In this document: positions 13,621 through 28,530 of the stretch, piece after piece | How positions within the stretch are numbered: position 1 is the first letter of the stretch | How the letters are laid out: each line of letters starts with the position of its first letter | Origin: a virus | IMG/VR virus record: IMGVR_UViG_3300012917_000004 | Span: 1-50,768 of that record | Direction: 5' to 3' (one strand) | Length of the DNA stretch: 50,768 nt | The notes under the pieces: model-generated | What the model saw: the letters and a program-made list of their open reading frames with translations, nothing else | What the model was told of the DNA's origin: nothing | Database searches by the model: none | Position numbers and translations under genes: made by a program

Positions 13621-14907
13621 TTAAGCGCGAGGAACAATGCCCGTGATGTAGCACATATGCGAAGGAGTCTCGCAGAACACGGTATTATCCGCCCATAGTC
13701 TCACCTGATAGCCAGCAAAGTCTCCCAAAGGAACCTGGAGATAGCTGTCCGTCGAAGTGCCAGGAAGCTGGAATGTAAGCTCGCTGGAACCAATACGAGT
13801 GATGGCATCCGTCGGATAGATCAAAGCCTGGCCTCTCTTAATAAGAGGATGAGGAACAATGGTCATCGTGCCGGAAGGAGAGTAGAATTCGAGGGCATCA
13901 GCGCCATTGTCGAATTTCTTTCCTTTCACATCACCATACCGTCTCGCCGCCGCTTGTTCGGTCAATAGATCGCTGAATGTGGTAAGGGGCACTAGAACCG
14001 TGCAATCCTCGCCCATTAAGCCTTTATCGCCCGGAAGCGTGATAGCTTTCTGAAGTTTGCCGAAAGACAACGGAGCCGATCCAGAGTCATACGTATTACC
14101 CGCCCAAAGAGGGAAAGTAGCCGCATCAACGCTGAATAGAGAACCAGTGTTCGAAGCAATTTTCATGAGTCCAACGCCTTCAATCCAAGTGGTGCTTGAG
14201 TTTGTAGCCGCACCATTGAAATAAACATTCAACGCCGTAGCATCTTCAGCCTGAAGGGCCGTAGTACCAGTCGTAGTACCAGTCACATCAATCGTGAAGT
14301 TCGTGAAATCAACTCCAACAACCTGGAACACTGAATCAGCAGCGCTAGAAACCAGCGCACCGCTCGATACCACGAAGAACTGAACCTGCGCTCCTAATGA
14401 AGAAGCCCAAATACCAGTAGCCCAAGTAGCGGCGGTAATGGTAACAGTGCTACGAGTCACAGACACAACATCAACGTCAGATGTCACACCAAGACCCTGC
14501 TGACCATGAAGATACGTACATTCGAGGCGGAATCCCGCGCCCTCAGTCATATCGTTCAAGGTAATATCAACAGCTTTGCCGAAACTATTCTTTCCAGCCG
14601 ACCGTGAGATAGCCGTATAAGAAATGTTATCCCTGCGGATCAAGCTGAACGCCGGAACAAGCGCGTTTTCCATCTGAAGCGCGATGGCAGAATTCAAAGC
14701 GAACGCCGAACCATCCGTATTATACGTATAGCCTTGGCCGGATTGAACTTTGACCGGAGCATTGAACTTGTCTCCGAGCTGTTTCATTCCTTTTTCTACT
14801 GTGGTGTTTTTCAAAACATAAGCATAATTCGGGACGAGATCTTTAATCTTATCCTGATAGGCTTGTTTGAAGTCACCGTTAAGGGCTGACAAATCTACAT
14901 CAGACAT
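13621..14907 (-). CDS. Major capsid protein
   Basis: 428 aa, start after AAAGGAAATAACC. Directly follows the scaffold gene in transcription order, the usual place of a coat gene. Length, mixed alpha/beta composition, the long N-terminal arm (SALNGDFKQAYQDKIKDLV), a glycine-rich E-loop-like region with ISRSAGKNSFGKAVDI, and an inserted beta domain around residues 150-235 (VTRSTVTITAATWATG; TNFTIDVTGTTTG) fit an HK97-fold coat protein. The subfamily cannot be fixed by eye. A 466-base untranslated stretch precedes it and a strong hairpin follows it, which may both serve its high expression. Confidence 0.85.
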   Translation of the reverse strand: MSDVDLSALNGDFKQAYQDKIKDLVPNYAYVLKNTTVEKGMKQLGDKFNAPVKVQSGQGYTYNTDGSAFALNSAIALQMENALVPAFSLIRRDNISYTAISRSAGKNSFGKAVDITLNDMTEGAGFRLECTYLHGQQGLGVTSDVDVVSVTRSTVTITAATWATGIWASSLGAQVQFFVVSSGALVSSAADSVFQVVGVDFTNFTIDVTGTTTGTTALQAEDATALNVYFNGAATNSSTTWIEGVGLMKIASNTGSLFSVDAATFPLWAGNTYDSGSAPLSFGKLQKAITLPGDKGLMGEDCTVLVPLTTFSDLLTEQAAARRYGDVKGKKFDNGADALEFYSPSGTMTIVPHPLIKRGQALIYPTDAITRIGSSELTFQLPGTSTDSYLQVPLGDFAGYQVRLWADNTVFCETPSHMCYITGIVPRA

Positions 14908-15373
14908 GGTTATTTCCTTTGCTACATGATTGTCAACTAAGCGAGAGACGTACTAGGTTGGAGTAAGGATAGGTATTAACGTCCGCATCCAACTATTCGG
15001 GATAGCCGTATAGTTGCCATTCTTGTCATGCTATACTTAATCTGGTTCCTCGCATGACTGAGGAATGCAGATAAATCGGTGCGCCCGTTTTTATATAGAA
15101 CCGACGCGTAAAACTATGAGACAGGTAGATAAATACCTAAGAGCTCGGTCCCAGGTTCGACTTGCACGAACAACCTCGTCTAAAAAGACGCCTCTCTCGT
15201 TGTTGAGTTACTGGTATGCAGCTTGCGCTGTTCAGTTGACCAATCTGAAATGGTAGTTTATTTATAGACGCTCCATCTATCCCGTCTTACATGGTTGCGA
15301 AGCTGTGGAATCGCACCACATTTAATCAGCTTATGAGGCTAACTGGATACTAACCCGCCGCCCGCGAAACGGT
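14908..15373 (-). ncRNA. Candidate structured leader/non-coding RNA upstream of the capsid gene
   Basis: This 466-base gap is exceptional in a genome where genes otherwise overlap. No convincing frame crosses it on the minus strand. Read on the minus strand it holds many hairpins: a 5-bp stem with loop CTCATAA (15326-15342), a 5-bp stem with T-loop-like TGCGATT (15304-15320), a 4-bp stem with a GCAA tetraloop (15219-15230), a 5-bp stem with four U (15177-15190), a 5-bp stem with T-loop-like TGCAAGT (15155-15171) and TTCCTC/GAGGAA (15046-15065). Transcribed as the capsid leader or processed, it could be a structured RNA. The class is unknown. Confidence 0.5.
15295..15365 (-). tRNA. tRNA-like element, possibly degenerate tRNA with CAU anticodon
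   Basis: Anticodon arm TTAGC-CTCATAA-GCTGA (anticodon CAT, T before and A after), 5-base variable loop TTAAA and T-arm TGTGG-TGCGATT-CCACA are canonical in spacing. The D-arm is poor (3 bp GGG/TCC with loop TTAGTA lacking GG), and the acceptor GCGGGCG/GCTTCGC pairs only in its outer five positions with two wobbles. CCA is not encoded in register. It may be a decayed tRNA-Met or a tRNA-mimic domain of the surrounding RNA rather than a functional tRNA. Confidence 0.3.
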
Positions 15374-16336
15374 TTATTCTCGGCCTGGGAACATACCAAC
15401 ACCAGCTTCTGATTTCATTTTCCGCATAGCCGCCCAATACGCCTTACCTTTAAGCTTAGAAAGGTCGACTTTATCACTGGGGGTAGAGTTCGTAGCTGGT
15501 TTTTTAGCCGGTTCTGTAACTGCTTGAGATTTCTTATAGCGTTCTACACGAGCTTTTGCAATCTTATTTGAAATAGCCTCGCCCACATAGTCTAAAAGCT
15601 CATCGCCCTCTAATTTCCCCATCGTAGAGACATGAATTTCTTTTAGATCTCGCGCCACGTACGGAAGAACGTCACTTACCGAATATTCTTTATCGTCTTT
15701 AAGGCCAGCATCAACATATTGAGCAATAAGAGCCAAACTAAGACGAGTTTTCGGTAGTTTATTAGCCGCTAGAGCCTCTTGACAATCTTTTTCGAACTTC
15801 TGGGCCCAATCTTGCGTCTTTTTAGTAGTCTCAGCCACTTTCGCGGCTTCTTCAGTGGCTTTAGCTTTAGCAGCAGCCTCGGCTTCTCGTTCTTTGTATT
15901 CTTCTAGTTCACGCTGTTCTGGTGATAGACTATTAAGACGAATCTGTTCATACAAAATATCGGTAGCAAGCTTCTGCGGGTCAATGCCAGAAGTTTTGCA
16001 TTGTTTGACGAATCCTTTATAGTCTGTAGTCAGAAGAGTAACAAGTTTATCGGCATTTTCTACCTTTTCAGCGGTCGTACGAGCTTTTTCTTCAATACCA
16101 AAGACTTTTTGAATATCATTCTTTAGCTTACTTTCATCAGAAGCATCGTACTCCACTTCTTTGCCATTAACGTTAAGTTTCCAGATTTTCTTCGGCTGTT
16201 CGGCAGCTACTCCATTATCATCTACCTTGGTAACTGGGGCCGTAGCCCCTTCAGTTTTAGACGAGACGGCGGGAGCGGCGTCAGATTTTACAGTATTTGC
16301 TGTAGTAGCAGGTGCGGCGGCTGTAGGTTCATTCAT
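15374..16336 (-). CDS. Capsid scaffold protein
   Basis: 320 aa, highly charged and mostly helical, with an Ala/Thr-rich N-terminal tail, a Lys/Glu coiled-coil stretch near residues 130-175 (ELEEYKEREAEAAAKAKATE), and a basic C-terminus typical of capsid-binding scaffolds (KGKAYWAAMRKMKSEAG). It precedes the capsid gene in the transcription order. No protease motif is seen. Start follows AAGGGGAAATAAT. Scaffold assignment rests on composition and position. Confidence 0.8.
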   Translation of the reverse strand: MNEPTAAAPATTANTVKSDAAPAVSSKTEGATAPVTKVDDNGVAAEQPKKIWKLNVNGKEVEYDASDESKLKNDIQKVFGIEEKARTTAEKVENADKLVTLLTTDYKGFVKQCKTSGIDPQKLATDILYEQIRLNSLSPEQRELEEYKEREAEAAAKAKATEEAAKVAETTKKTQDWAQKFEKDCQEALAANKLPKTRLSLALIAQYVDAGLKDDKEYSVSDVLPYVARDLKEIHVSTMGKLEGDELLDYVGEAISNKIAKARVERYKKSQAVTEPAKKPATNSTPSDKVDLSKLKGKAYWAAMRKMKSEAGVGMFPGRE

Positions 16337-16887: not shown

Positions 16888-18684
16888 TTAAAAAACAAGA
16901 TTAGTCGAAGCTTTCTTTTTAGCGGAAGCTCCGGTAGCGGCAGGAAAGAATACTGCACCTGTAGCAACAGAAGCCCCGGAAGTTGTCGGCGTAAATGGGC
17001 ACTGTTGTGCGCTTAAAGGGGCATTAACATAATACCCCGCCGCAAAGCCGTCTACCGATGATTCATGATCTGAGGCGGTCCATGGCGAATTAACGCCTGT
17101 TAAAAAGAAGTCATCCGTGAGGGCAGCACTCGTAAGCAATTCACCGGTGGCGCTAGGTGTAAGAGAGGGTCCTACTGTAGAGCCTGCCGCCGTATCTAGA
17201 GCGTTCGCTGTATCTAACGCTCCTGAAGTTTTAACGCCAGAGTACTCTTCAACCGACACTATTGAATTACAAGACCCGCTAAAGTTCACCGTTACCGTTG
17301 TTGCACCTGCGGAACAATTTTGACAATACCAAGTATCAATAACGTGATTTGTAGTAATTTGATGTGAGCCCGTCGCAAAAACATACATATTCGAGACATT
17401 GTCAGTAACGCTCGAAACAGTACGTGTACCCACATTTGATATTTGCGCTACAATTAAGTTTCCTGCGGAAGTTGCGGAAATAGTAATCGTAGGGCTGGCG
17501 CTACTTAGTGTGCCTTTATCTACTGCTTGAACTTGTGTTATTGCCATAGAAGGCGGTGCTCCTGTTTGATACAATTCTGTTGATGTATAAATTGTTCCGA
17601 CATTATCTGCCCCACCCGCCCACAATGGAGTGCCATTCGCTAATTGAATGCCACCATTTAAAGGGCCGGTGCCTCGTGCCGCATTTAAACTATTAACAAC
17701 TGTCCACAGTTCAGTATTGGGATTATATAGTTCAGTCGTGGTGATGGAGTTTTCGGGGCTGACACCGATTTGACCACCTGCATATAATACTGTACCGTCA
17801 TTTAAATTGTATATACATGCTTCACCAGTGCCGGTGCTTAAACTACCAGTTGAAGCAAAACTATCGGTATTTGGATCATACAGTTGACAAAGTTCTCTGG
17901 CGGCATGAACGTTGTTAACACCGCCTGCCGAAAGCACTTTACCAGACGGAAGAGTAATGCAAGTATTCCCGCCATCAAACTCAACACCAAACACCGGAAC
18001 TCCGGCAGTAGCACTCCACGTTCCGCCGCCTACACTGTATTTCTCAGCGGTATTAGTTTCCCCACCACCATTCTTACGACCAGATATAATTAATGGTGTA
18101 CCATCCTGAAGCAAAACAAATCCGGCGTTTTGTCTCGCTACGTTTAAAGCTCCGGTTGCTGTCCATAAGCCCGTGTTTGGATCAAAAAGAGCACAGGTGT
18201 TCGCTACCGTATTAAACGAGGTTCCGCTAACGGTTCCCCCCGCCTGAAGTACTTTTCCGTTTGCAAGAAGATACAGCGCATTAACGGCTGTGGCAGCAGG
18301 CAGACTACCCGTCGTACTCCATGTTTCAGCTACAGGATCATAAATTTCACACGTTGCTGTGCAGGTTCCAGAAGAGAATGTAGTAACACCCCCCACCATA
18401 AGTACTGTACCATCGTGTAACTTAACACAAGTATGAAACGACCGAGCTACACTTGCACTTCCTGTAAAACTCCACGTCCCCGTATTTGGATCATACAATT
18501 CGCACGTATTAGTCGGCGTACCAGGATCATCAATTTCGCCGCAAGCAATGAGTATCTTGCCACTATTTAATAAACATCCTGCGTAGGCGGCTCTTGGTGT
18601 GTGAAGTGAGCCGGTAAAATTCCAAGTACTCGCCACATTAGAAACCTTGAATGACGGATACCACATCCCAACGGGACGCGCCAT
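16888..18684 (-). CDS. Kelch-repeat beta-propeller protein with C-terminal Cys-containing domain (receptor-binding candidate)
   Basis: 598 aa. Residues about 15-370 contain seven Kelch-type units of the pattern CELYDPNTGTW-x-xTGSL-x-AR-x-L-x-DG-x-VLxxGG. The C-terminal strand TSTELYQ could close the ring against the N-terminal TWNFTGSL unit, giving a seven-bladed propeller. A second domain, residues about 375-598, is beta-rich with TWYCQNCSAGATTVTVNF, ending in a Lys-rich tail. Kelch propellers bind proteins or glycans; on a phage particle a receptor-binding or decoration role is inferred. It overlaps the upstream fibre-like gene by 47 bases. It could also be a horizontally gained host domain. 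Confidence 0.85.
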   Translation of the reverse strand: MARPVGMWYPSFKVSNVASTWNFTGSLHTPRAAYAGCLLNSGKILIACGEIDDPGTPTNTCELYDPNTGTWSFTGSASVARSFHTCVKLHDGTVLMVGGVTTFSSGTCTATCEIYDPVAETWSTTGSLPAATAVNALYLLANGKVLQAGGTVSGTSFNTVANTCALFDPNTGLWTATGALNVARQNAGFVLLQDGTPLIISGRKNGGGETNTAEKYSVGGGTWSATAGVPVFGVEFDGGNTCITLPSGKVLSAGGVNNVHAARELCQLYDPNTDSFASTGSLSTGTGEACIYNLNDGTVLYAGGQIGVSPENSITTTELYNPNTELWTVVNSLNAARGTGPLNGGIQLANGTPLWAGGADNVGTIYTSTELYQTGAPPSMAITQVQAVDKGTLSSASPTITISATSAGNLIVAQISNVGTRTVSSVTDNVSNMYVFATGSHQITTNHVIDTWYCQNCSAGATTVTVNFSGSCNSIVSVEEYSGVKTSGALDTANALDTAAGSTVGPSLTPSATGELLTSAALTDDFFLTGVNSPWTASDHESSVDGFAAGYYVNAPLSAQQCPFTPTTSGASVATGAVFFPAATGASAKKKASTNLVF

Positions 18685-27225: not shown

Positions 27226-27230
27226 ATGCC

Positions 27231-27268
27231 GCCTATTCGATTAAAAGTGTGTTATATTCGTTTATTCA
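27231..27268 (-). promoter_or_regulatory. Weak candidate late promoter
   Basis: On the minus strand TTGAAT, 18 bases, then TTTAAT lie before ATG 27225; an overlapping TATAAC is also present. The match is moderate and the spacing one base over the ideal. An activator, such as the sigma region-4-like early protein, might be needed for late transcription; that link is inference. Confidence 0.3.
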
Positions 27269-27312
27269 ACCAACGTAGTAGTTTAATGTCAGTCTGTAAG
27301 CGATTCTATTGC

Positions 27313-27328
27313 CCTACCGCCCGGTAGG
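27313..27328. repeat. Perfect 7-bp inverted repeat CCTACCG-CC-CGGTAGG
   Basis: Two arms separated by two bases, near the late-side promoter. A two-base loop is too small for an RNA hairpin, so a protein-binding operator is more likely than a terminator. Confidence 0.45.
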
Positions 27329-27454
27329 CTAATGATTACAGAGAAATCTTATATCTTGATGGATAACAATCAATGCGTAAACAGTAGCCGATCTGTTACA
27401 CTTGTCCCACGGTATCAACGTTGGGATGAAGAAGAGTATCGGTGCACCCTTGGT

Positions 27455-27479
27455 TTCTCGGCCAGCAGGGGCACGAGAA
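27455..27479. repeat. Hairpin TTCTCG-GCC / GGC-A-CGAGAA
   Basis: Nine paired bases interrupted by one bulged A, loop AGCAGG. It lies in the middle of the divergent region with no gene around it. Function unknown; no T-run, so not an obvious terminator. Confidence 0.4.
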
Positions 27480-27550
27480 GAAGCATATTTCGAATGTATG
27501 CTCCTACCATCAACCCCGCCAGCCGCGTTCGTTCTTTTGTCCAAGCGTAC

Positions 27551-27630
27551 GAGAGGCGCTTAACTCGCTTAGCTACTTGCTCGCTTGCAGCATAAAAATA
27601 AGAAGCTGCGCTGTTAAGCGTCAGCCTCTC
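27551..27630. repeat. Long imperfect inverted repeat (14 paired bases in the outer stem)
   Basis: GAGAGG-CGCTTAAC (27551-27564) pairs with GTTAAGCG-(TCAG)-CCTCTC (27613-27630), leaving a 4-base bulge. Inside, GCAGC (27587-27591) pairs with GCTGC (27605-27609). The 80-base element is 140 bp before the early promoter. It could be a structured early RNA, an extruded-DNA site for replication, or an operator pair. Confidence 0.5.
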
Positions 27631-27738
27631 TATCCTTTGTCCCGTACATCGTCAAACGCATGACAGCGGCAATCGCTTAAATAAGATAAATCGTAGCATG
27701 ATTTCGTCTATTTCACGCTATGAATAATTTATAAGGGG

Positions 27739-27767
27739 TTGCAATTTAAATAGATTCATGATAGACT
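27739..27767 (+). promoter_or_regulatory. Early promoter P1 (TTGCAA-N17-TAGACT), leaderless type
   Basis: The -35 TTGCAA (27739-27744) and -10 TAGACT (27762-27767) are 17 bp apart. The -10 box is followed by five bases and ATGAATAAA, so transcription would start at or next to the A of the ATG. The same layout is found at 28497-28525. Confidence 0.55.
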
Positions 27768-27772
27768 ATAGT

Positions 27773-28015
27773 ATGAATAAAACACTCGAGAGCAAGACGC
27801 GGCACAAAATGGATTGCGAACGGGTTTTTAAGCATTATGATCTATCGTGCTTACGTTGCGTTGAATTATCTGGCGGTGCGGCTCCTAGAGCCGGGTGGAG
27901 CGACTGGAAAAGAGAACAAGAACGGCGCACTAATCTAGCAATTGATGCACATTTTAGCAGCGAAAAGCATAAGAGTGGCGGATGTGGCGTAGTGTGCACG
28001 TTTGGAGATTGGTAG
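27773..28015 (+). CDS. First early protein, small Cys-containing phage protein (80 aa)
   Basis: ATG 27773 is chosen because it sits five bases after the -10 box; an upstream in-frame ATG at 27758 would precede transcription. The core has CLRCVELSGGAAPRAGW, a His at HFSSEKHK, and GGCGVVCTFGDW at the C-terminus. This C-R-C-E-L/...CGxVCTxG pattern recurs in small proteins of many unrelated phages, as I recall, without known function. Zinc binding is likely. No Shine-Dalgarno is visible, consistent with a leaderless message. Confidence 0.75.
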   Translation: MNKTLESKTRHKMDCERVFKHYDLSCLRCVELSGGAAPRAGWSDWKREQERRTNLAIDAHFSSEKHKSGGCGVVCTFGDW

Positions 28016-28017
28016 AC

Positions 28018-28161
28018 GTGGAACAAGATGAATGGGGTAGAACATGCTTTTTATGTGGTATATTGAAACGCACCGATGAATTTCACCATGATGTTTGTCT
28101 AGATTGTCATGACTATGATCAAAGTCAATGTGAAGAATGTTACCCTTTGTCAGTAAAATAA
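28018..28161 (+). CDS. Zinc-finger microprotein, 47 aa, GTG start
   Basis: Start GTG 28018 follows GGAGATTGGTAGAC. Three CxxC pairs in 47 residues (CFLC, CLDC, CEEC) plus His at FHHD suggest one or two zinc sites. Highly acidic. Function unknown; a host-interaction role is possible. Confidence 0.65.
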   Translation: MEQDEWGRTCFLCGILKRTDEFHHDVCLDCHDYDQSQCEECYPLSVK

Positions 28162-28174
28162 ACAGGAGACTAAA

Positions 28175-28297
28175 ATGAACAAAATAACTGTAGTACGAAA
28201 GCCAATGGATGCGCCAAGCGTCATATTGCTTCTGTTGTTAGGACCGTTAGGATGGGTGATGTTGTTAGTTGCCTGGGCGGATGGCTGGCGACCTTAG
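28175..28297 (+). CDS. Single-span membrane peptide, 40 aa
   Basis: ATG follows ACAGGAGACTAAA. A short basic N-terminus is followed by the hydrophobic stretch VILLLLLGPLGWVMLLVAWA. Inner-membrane location inferred. Function unknown. Confidence 0.6.
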   Translation: MNKITVVRKPMDAPSVILLLLLGPLGWVMLLVAWADGWRP

Positions 28298-28311
28298 AAG
28301 GAGACAATAAT

Positions 28312-28479
28312 ATGTGGCGATGGTTAAAATGCTTAGTAACAGGTGGACATATGTGGTATTTACCAAATGATATTCGCAAGAGATTTAATAAAATAAATAT
28401 CTACAAGCAATCGCTTATGCGCCATTCTTGTAAGAAATGCGGCGTCGAAGAAGATAATAGCTGGGCATACGATGTATAA
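28312..28479 (+). CDS. Small basic protein with Cys pair, 55 aa
   Basis: ATG 28312 follows AGAAGGAGACAATAAT; the longer frame overlapping the previous gene has no ribosome site. The product begins MWRWLKCLVTGGHMW and ends with HSCKKCGVEEDN, suggesting zinc coordination by the CKKC pair plus C7/H13. Function unknown. Confidence 0.65.
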   Translation: MWRWLKCLVTGGHMWYLPNDIRKRFNKINIYKQSLMRHSCKKCGVEEDNSWAYDV

Positions 28480-28496
28480 ATGGGCCGTTTGACCCA

Positions 28497-28525
28497 TTGA
28501 CTTTATAGCATTTTGGGGGTATACT
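28497..28525 (+). promoter_or_regulatory. Early promoter P2 (TTGACT-N17-TATACT), leaderless type
   Basis: Near-consensus sigma70 elements: -35 at 28497-28502, -10 at 28520-28525, spacer exactly 17. Only five bases (AAATT) separate the -10 box from ATGAATAAA at 28531, so the mRNA would begin at about the start codon. Confidence 0.75.
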
Positions 28526-28530
28526 AAATT

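Follow-up and report, generated by a model that had tools for sequence, protein, structure and literature searches.

A covarying pseudoknot RNA before the capsid gene in a clade of uncultured phages: a candidate translational operator

Introduction

What is encoded in the 466 untranslated bases that separate the capsid gene of an uncultured phage from the gene transcribed before it? Capsid protein is required in bulk and in a strict ratio to portal and scaffold, and the post-transcriptional setting of this ratio in tailed phages is largely an open question. The gap is found at 14908-15373 of a viral DNA of 50,768 nucleotides (IMG/VR record IMGVR_UViG_3300012917_000004; this whole stretch is called the window below). 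It is transcribed from the minus strand and fits exactly between the capsid open reading frame and the one upstream. A first-pass annotation of the letters had read it as one hairpin-rich structured RNA.

Results

Gene context of the gap

The gene downstream of the gap (13621-14907, minus strand) was assigned to the major capsid (head) protein from matches within its family and from gene position. PHROG 14242, 'major head protein', is matched weakly by five of the 14 members of the capsid family (best E 3.9e-5), and the location of the gene after terminase, portal and a scaffold-like gene agrees with this identity. The window's own capsid protein gave no PHROG or Pfam match, the family profile found no convincing solved structure, and an AlphaFold model was of such low quality (mean pLDDT 38) that neither it nor a fold search with it was informative. 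The upstream gene (15374-16336, minus strand) is called scaffold-like by position and composition only; its product has no PHROG or Pfam match. At 16888-18684 the window encodes a head/tail-module protein of 598 aa with Kelch repeats (Pfam E 2e-22), unusual in a virion gene. In a simple gene picture of the window, the only other internal gap above 300 bases is 27226-28530, in line with the earlier count of two such gaps; this long gap marks the boundary between the leftward late module and the rightward early module. The gap before the capsid gene is real as well, and no conserved gene was found in it.

Folding energies were ordinary, with z scores of -1.19 for the gap and -0.69 for its last part, named element X here, and neither ARAGORN nor Rfam called a tRNA in the gap. 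With the z of -1.19 and both searches blank, the window alone cannot separate structure from chance; the stability of the gap is no better than chance, and structure becomes evident from the comparison of relatives and not from energy. By a capsid search in IMG/VR we gathered 15 capsid loci, 82-86% identical, and extracted and aligned their upstream regions (individual loci are denoted by L numbers). The phage collection held no close DNA relatives of the window, and the bacterial and archaeal genome collection yielded neither a capsid relative nor the pattern of element X.

Instead of the single element first proposed, the gap proved to be a composite, in which a variable slot beside the scaffold-like gene is followed by about 150 conserved bases that run to the capsid ribosome-binding site. 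On the minus strand, three separate parts follow one another: a tRNA(CAU) at 15366-15292, a tRNA-like cloverleaf at 15243-15145 and element X at 15076-14921.

The variable slot carries optional tRNA-type cargo

The first part aligns with the tRNAs of eight relatives and reads as an initiator-type tRNA(CAU). A tRNA-Met was called by ARAGORN in the slot of L003, L004, L008, L011, L012 and L015, and Rfam tRNA matches at gathering score were obtained for L003, L007, L008, L011 and L012. The CTCATAA anticodon loop is invariant in the nine aligned tRNAs (window and eight relatives), GCAA is present in all nine, and C1 opposite A72 and an encoded CCA are each present in eight. C1 opposite A72 together with an encoded CCA corresponds to the initiator pattern. 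In place of the three G-C anticodon-stem pairs of initiators, the stems are mostly AGC/GCU or similar, and only the tRNA of L012 has GGG on the 5' side (GGG/UCC). A tRNA search of nine of these records gave at most one tRNA per record. In the window the T-loop is UGCGAUU (TGCGATT in the DNA, versus TTCRAYT in most relatives) and the D-loop has AG, versus GG in most. These changes form paired oddities, G18 to A in the D-loop and G at position 55 of the T-loop, with G19-C56 kept. As judged from the alignment, the tRNA(CAU) is intact in relatives and decayed in the window.

In the tRNA-like element, the acceptor-like stem is interrupted by an extra hairpin with a GCAA (GNRA) loop; a D-like arm, a short hairpin in the middle and a T-arm with UGCAAGU complete the cloverleaf. 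The fold recurs in L008 and L013 with altered, still pairing stems. In the window and in these two relatives, variable loops of ~3-6 nt stand where a functional tRNA would have a 7-nt anticodon loop. A second tRNA-like version of ~80 bases, with an 8-bp acceptor, a D-like arm, a 4-bp middle hairpin and an 11-nt T-loop (UAKUGGUUAAU), lies upstream of element X in L003, L004 and L015, and a pattern search found it in these three only.

The loops listed in the first pass are all present. The two 7-nt loops on 5-bp stems are TGTGG-TGCGATT-CCACA (15320-15304) and GTTCG-TGCAAGT-CGAAC (15171-15155), the latter being the T-arm of the tRNA-like element; the GCAA tetraloop lies at 15226-15223, and the anticodon arm is TTAGC-CTCATAA-GCTGA (15342-15326). 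They had been taken as hallmarks of a compact ornate RNA, a reading that does not hold, as all of them belong to the tRNA(CAU) and the tRNA-like cloverleaf. Elsewhere the slot holds a hairpin (L002), a small gene (L006 and L009) or nothing (L001 and L005), and small gene and tRNA occur together in several relatives, for example L007 and L012. Because the slot contents are interchangeable among relatives, the tRNA-type parts are not pieces of one ornate RNA. By this comparison, the tRNA(CAU) and the tRNA-like element are separate optional cargo of the slot, apart from element X, and the slot represents a site in phage head operons for gain and loss of RNA cargo. The small genes (L006:2597-2833, L007:2403-2657, and those of L009 and L012), which alternate with or accompany the tRNAs, encode ~78-84 aa ending in ...TDAAWHA[IV]TSA and show weak similarity, in PHROG, to the end of a tail fibre.

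Architecture of element X

By inspection, the 5' half of element X is an H-type pseudoknot with stacked helices P1 and P2, the loop of P2 being paired to a downstream strand (PK); all coordinates are on the minus strand. P1 is formed by AUCUG (15068-15072) and CAGAU (15040-15044), with the variants GUCUG/CAGAC in L002, AUCUA/UAGAU in L004 and CAUA/UAUG in L001. P2 is formed by UCCUC (15060-15064) and GAGGA (15047-15051), and PK by UCAUGC inside the P2 loop (15052-15057) and GCAUGA (15026-15031). The 3' half is a long hairpin, P3-P4, that closes a few nucleotides ahead of the Shine-Dalgarno sequence. In P3, AUG-GC-AACUA (15011-15020) pairs with UAGUU...CAU (14926-14939), which ends 5 nt before the capsid Shine-Dalgarno AAAGGA (14915-14920), six bases that are identical in all relatives. 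In P4, UAGUUGGA (14988-14995) pairs with UCCAACCUA (14954-14962). The apical loop GGACGUUAAUACCUAUCC (14967-14984) is near-invariant over the 14 aligned copies, with the 18-nt consensus GGACGYUAAYNCCUAUCC.

A subclass of the apical loop is seen in L001 and L010, which have GGACUCCGUAGGAUAUCC or GGACUCUAAGGAUAUCC in place of the usual loop. The same two loci have the most divergent scaffold-like proteins (~50% identical to that of the window), and the subclass possibly tracks a different ligand.

The helices of element X covary

Mean column identity is 62% for the 14 copies of element X versus 92% for the capsid proteins. Pairing was assessed by an alignment-free swap test, in which the strands are set by anchors only, each strand is paired with its own partner or with the partners of other phages, and 20,000 permutations are made. 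The pairing energies, own versus swapped, were -12.0 versus -8.1 kcal/mol for PK, -11.3 versus -7.9 kcal/mol for P3 and -9.1 versus -5.2 kcal/mol for P4, and none of the 20,000 permutations reached the own pairing in any of the three helices; for P1 the number was 39 of 20,000. The test was repeated with L010 added. As the antisense strands pass it almost as well, and sense and antisense energies do not settle the strand, the strand of element X was assigned from context. Double changes occur in most columns of P1, P2, PK and P3, and all seven PK columns vary yet pair; these counts are illustrative, because the helices were fitted per sequence on a hand structure, and the swap tests are less biased. 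With the MAFFT alignment as input, RNAalifold was limited by the divergence of the stem letters and recovered no more than P1, a portion of P2 and the foot of the apical loop. When the 5' domain was aligned separately with MAFFT, the pseudoknot fell into two registers, and this alignment was excluded from the counts. L006 has lost P1 and PK and kept P2, P3 and P4, which indicates that the 5' domain of element X is dispensable.

A covariance model, R1, was built from 14 copies of element X and searched over 35 loci. L010, which had been excluded from the model on account of an early interruption in its capsid gene, was found as a held-out relative with 43.6 bits (E 4e-8). Its helices are kept with new letters: AGAA/UUCU in P1, UCCCUC/GAGGGA in P2, AUACGC/GCGUAU in PK and UAUCGC/GCGAUA in P4. 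The interruption itself (L010:2424-3021) breaks the capsid gene after ~16 codons and contains an HNH/endonuclease VII-like open reading frame (2572-2961); it resembles a homing-endonuclease intron, and Rfam found no known intron family in it.

The compensatory changes that the first-pass annotation had asked for across homologous gaps are therefore seen, within element X. Its proposal of a structured RNA outside Rfam stands for only the last ~156 bases of the gap, which carry none of the loops it had listed. From the comparison of relatives, element X is strongly supported as a conserved, covarying RNA fold, whose helices are retained while the letters change. That the entire gap should be functionless, decaying tRNA debris, with the conserved 3' part only a DNA-level signal such as a promoter or protein-binding site, would fit the decayed tRNA of the window, with its changed D- and T-loops and no ARAGORN or Rfam call, as well as the ordinary folding energy. 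We regard it as barely credible, as the strands co-evolve in three helices including the pseudoknot, the held-out relative retains them and no promoter-like site was called in the gap.

Element X accompanies the capsid gene whatever the slot holds

In R1 searches of whole records, a single element X was found in every one of the 15 records with a capsid start and upstream DNA (99.4 bits in the window), and in all 15 it lies directly before the capsid ribosome-binding site, whether the slot upstream is empty or occupied by tRNAs, a hairpin or a small gene. It is absent, by R1, from 14 of 14 related records without a capsid gene, and a distant capsid relative (28% identical), in Silvanigrella phage CP017838, has no element X. 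All copies belong to one clade of uncultured phages with capsids more than 82% identical. A second R1 match in the window (36577-36452, 24.8 bits) was rejected as chance, having no apical loop and lying opposite a primase-like gene. Matches to the apical-loop pattern in L017 and L023 were likewise attributed to chance, as the remainder of element X is missing there, and pattern matches in L045-L061 did not match R1.

This distribution bears on two other explanations. Element X could be a processing or stability element, a folded 5' end left after excision of the tRNA and the tRNA-like element by RNase P and 3'-end enzymes, which would protect the capsid mRNA and keep it more abundant than the mRNA of the upstream genes with no ligand required. 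A tRNA(CAU) does lie between the upstream genes and element X in the window and eight relatives, several of them with a tRNA-like cloverleaf too, and in L015 the CCA end of the tRNA abuts the start of element X. We nevertheless hold this explanation to be unlikely, since element X is kept in five slots without tRNA (L001 and L005, empty; L006 and L009, small gene; L002, hairpin) and a pure stabiliser would have no need of a near-invariant 18-nt apical loop. Lower still do we rate the chance that a non-coding RNA acting in trans, for instance a packaging or assembly RNA, has its precursor in element X, which would then lie in the capsid leader by accident. A compact pseudoknot fold with one constant loop, present as a single copy per genome and within the head-gene module, is what such an RNA might look like, but element X invariably adjoins the capsid ribosome-binding site and is never found elsewhere in the genome, and a scan for consensus sites gave it neither a promoter-like site nor a convincing terminator-like one.

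Element X was not matched by any Rfam family at gathering score in the window and the 15 relatives, and nothing was found over 14850-15420 of the window up to E 5. It is new in the sense that it lies outside Rfam and is previously undescribed within the open-access literature. A riboswitch or a host-factor sensor of late expression would share its size, its pseudoknot and its position beside the ribosome-binding site, which are those of translational riboswitches in general; given the lack of an Rfam match and the occurrence before one structural gene only, outside any metabolic gene context, we consider this very improbable.

Discussion

A fold that is kept while its letters change suggests that element X probably sets the amount of capsid protein. 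A leader peptide within it is disfavoured by stops in nearly all frames and by the irregularity of the indels. The fixed gene, the common AAAGGA end, the constant loop and the lack of any sign of a leader peptide together make up the anatomy of a cis-acting operator or leader, and variable stems below a nearly constant apical loop are as expected for a recognition site. Taken with the parallel of T4 gene 32, this anatomy favours autogenous control, with mRNA processing or stability in second place. We therefore lean, by a modest degree, towards element X being a leader that acts in cis on the capsid mRNA, most probably as an operator through which translation is autogenously controlled; its cis action, ligand and direction of control we infer from sequence comparison.

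In such an operator, free capsid or scaffold protein, the most plausible ligand, would recognise the constant apical loop, the pseudoknot or both, and the bound protein would stabilise the fold of element X beside the ribosome-binding site, so that an excess of subunits would lower capsid translation. Where tRNA(CAU) and tRNA-like cargo are present, their excision would bring the 5' end of the capsid mRNA close to element X. In pseudoknot-free folding the Shine-Dalgarno sequence is neither clearly hidden nor clearly exposed. A bolder version of this reading, which we put forward tentatively and as somewhat doubtful, would make element X the first known leader RNA with which a tailed DNA phage senses its free capsid (or scaffold) protein and adjusts the translation of capsid mRNA, via a constant apical loop beside a pseudoknot. 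In any case, element X is a defined, testable RNA of ~150 nt with known helices and a constant loop.

Comparison with known systems concerns both the cargo and element X. Initiator tRNAs are known from phages, as phage T5 carries a tRNA-fMet. The tRNA(CAU) of the slot resembles a phage-encoded initiator tRNA in its CUCAUAA anticodon loop, C1 opposite A72 and encoded CCA; unlike it, it is the sole tRNA in the searched records and stands beside the capsid gene, and the copy in the window is decayed.

GOLLD and ROOL, like element X, are structured RNAs of phage or prophage DNA without known function, and kinship with them had been suggested for the gap. They measure several hundred nucleotides or more. 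Element X, at ~150 nt, is far smaller, and the covariance models of GOLLD and ROOL found no match in the window and the 15 relatives, which speaks against that kinship. Both RNAs are oligomeric (PMC12286853). Mu-gpT-DE is a candidate structured RNA upstream of Mu-like major head protein genes. This motif is Rfam family RF03012 (PMC7657543), whose covariance model did not match element X in Rfam scans of the window and its relatives.

In bacteria, the translational operator of Escherichia coli rpsO, which encodes ribosomal protein S15, contains a pseudoknot and mediates autogenous control (PMC3014915). It is a bacterial ribosomal protein operator, and element X has no match to any Rfam family. 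The closest parallel is with T4 gene 32, whose product gp32 represses its own mRNA via a leader pseudoknot (PMC3014915). The gene 32 operators of T4, T2 and RB69 have in common with element X an H-type pseudoknot in a phage mRNA leader upstream of the start codon (PMC3014915). They control a single-strand DNA-binding protein and not a capsid protein, and the ligand is proven there and putative for element X. Between pseudoknot and ribosome-binding site, gene 32 has an unstructured A+U-rich tract, whereas element X has the P3/P4 hairpin; neither such a hairpin nor a constant apical loop is part of the gene 32 operator. In a review of 2010, translational autoregulation through a viral pseudoknot was perhaps limited to T4 gene 32 (PMC3014915).
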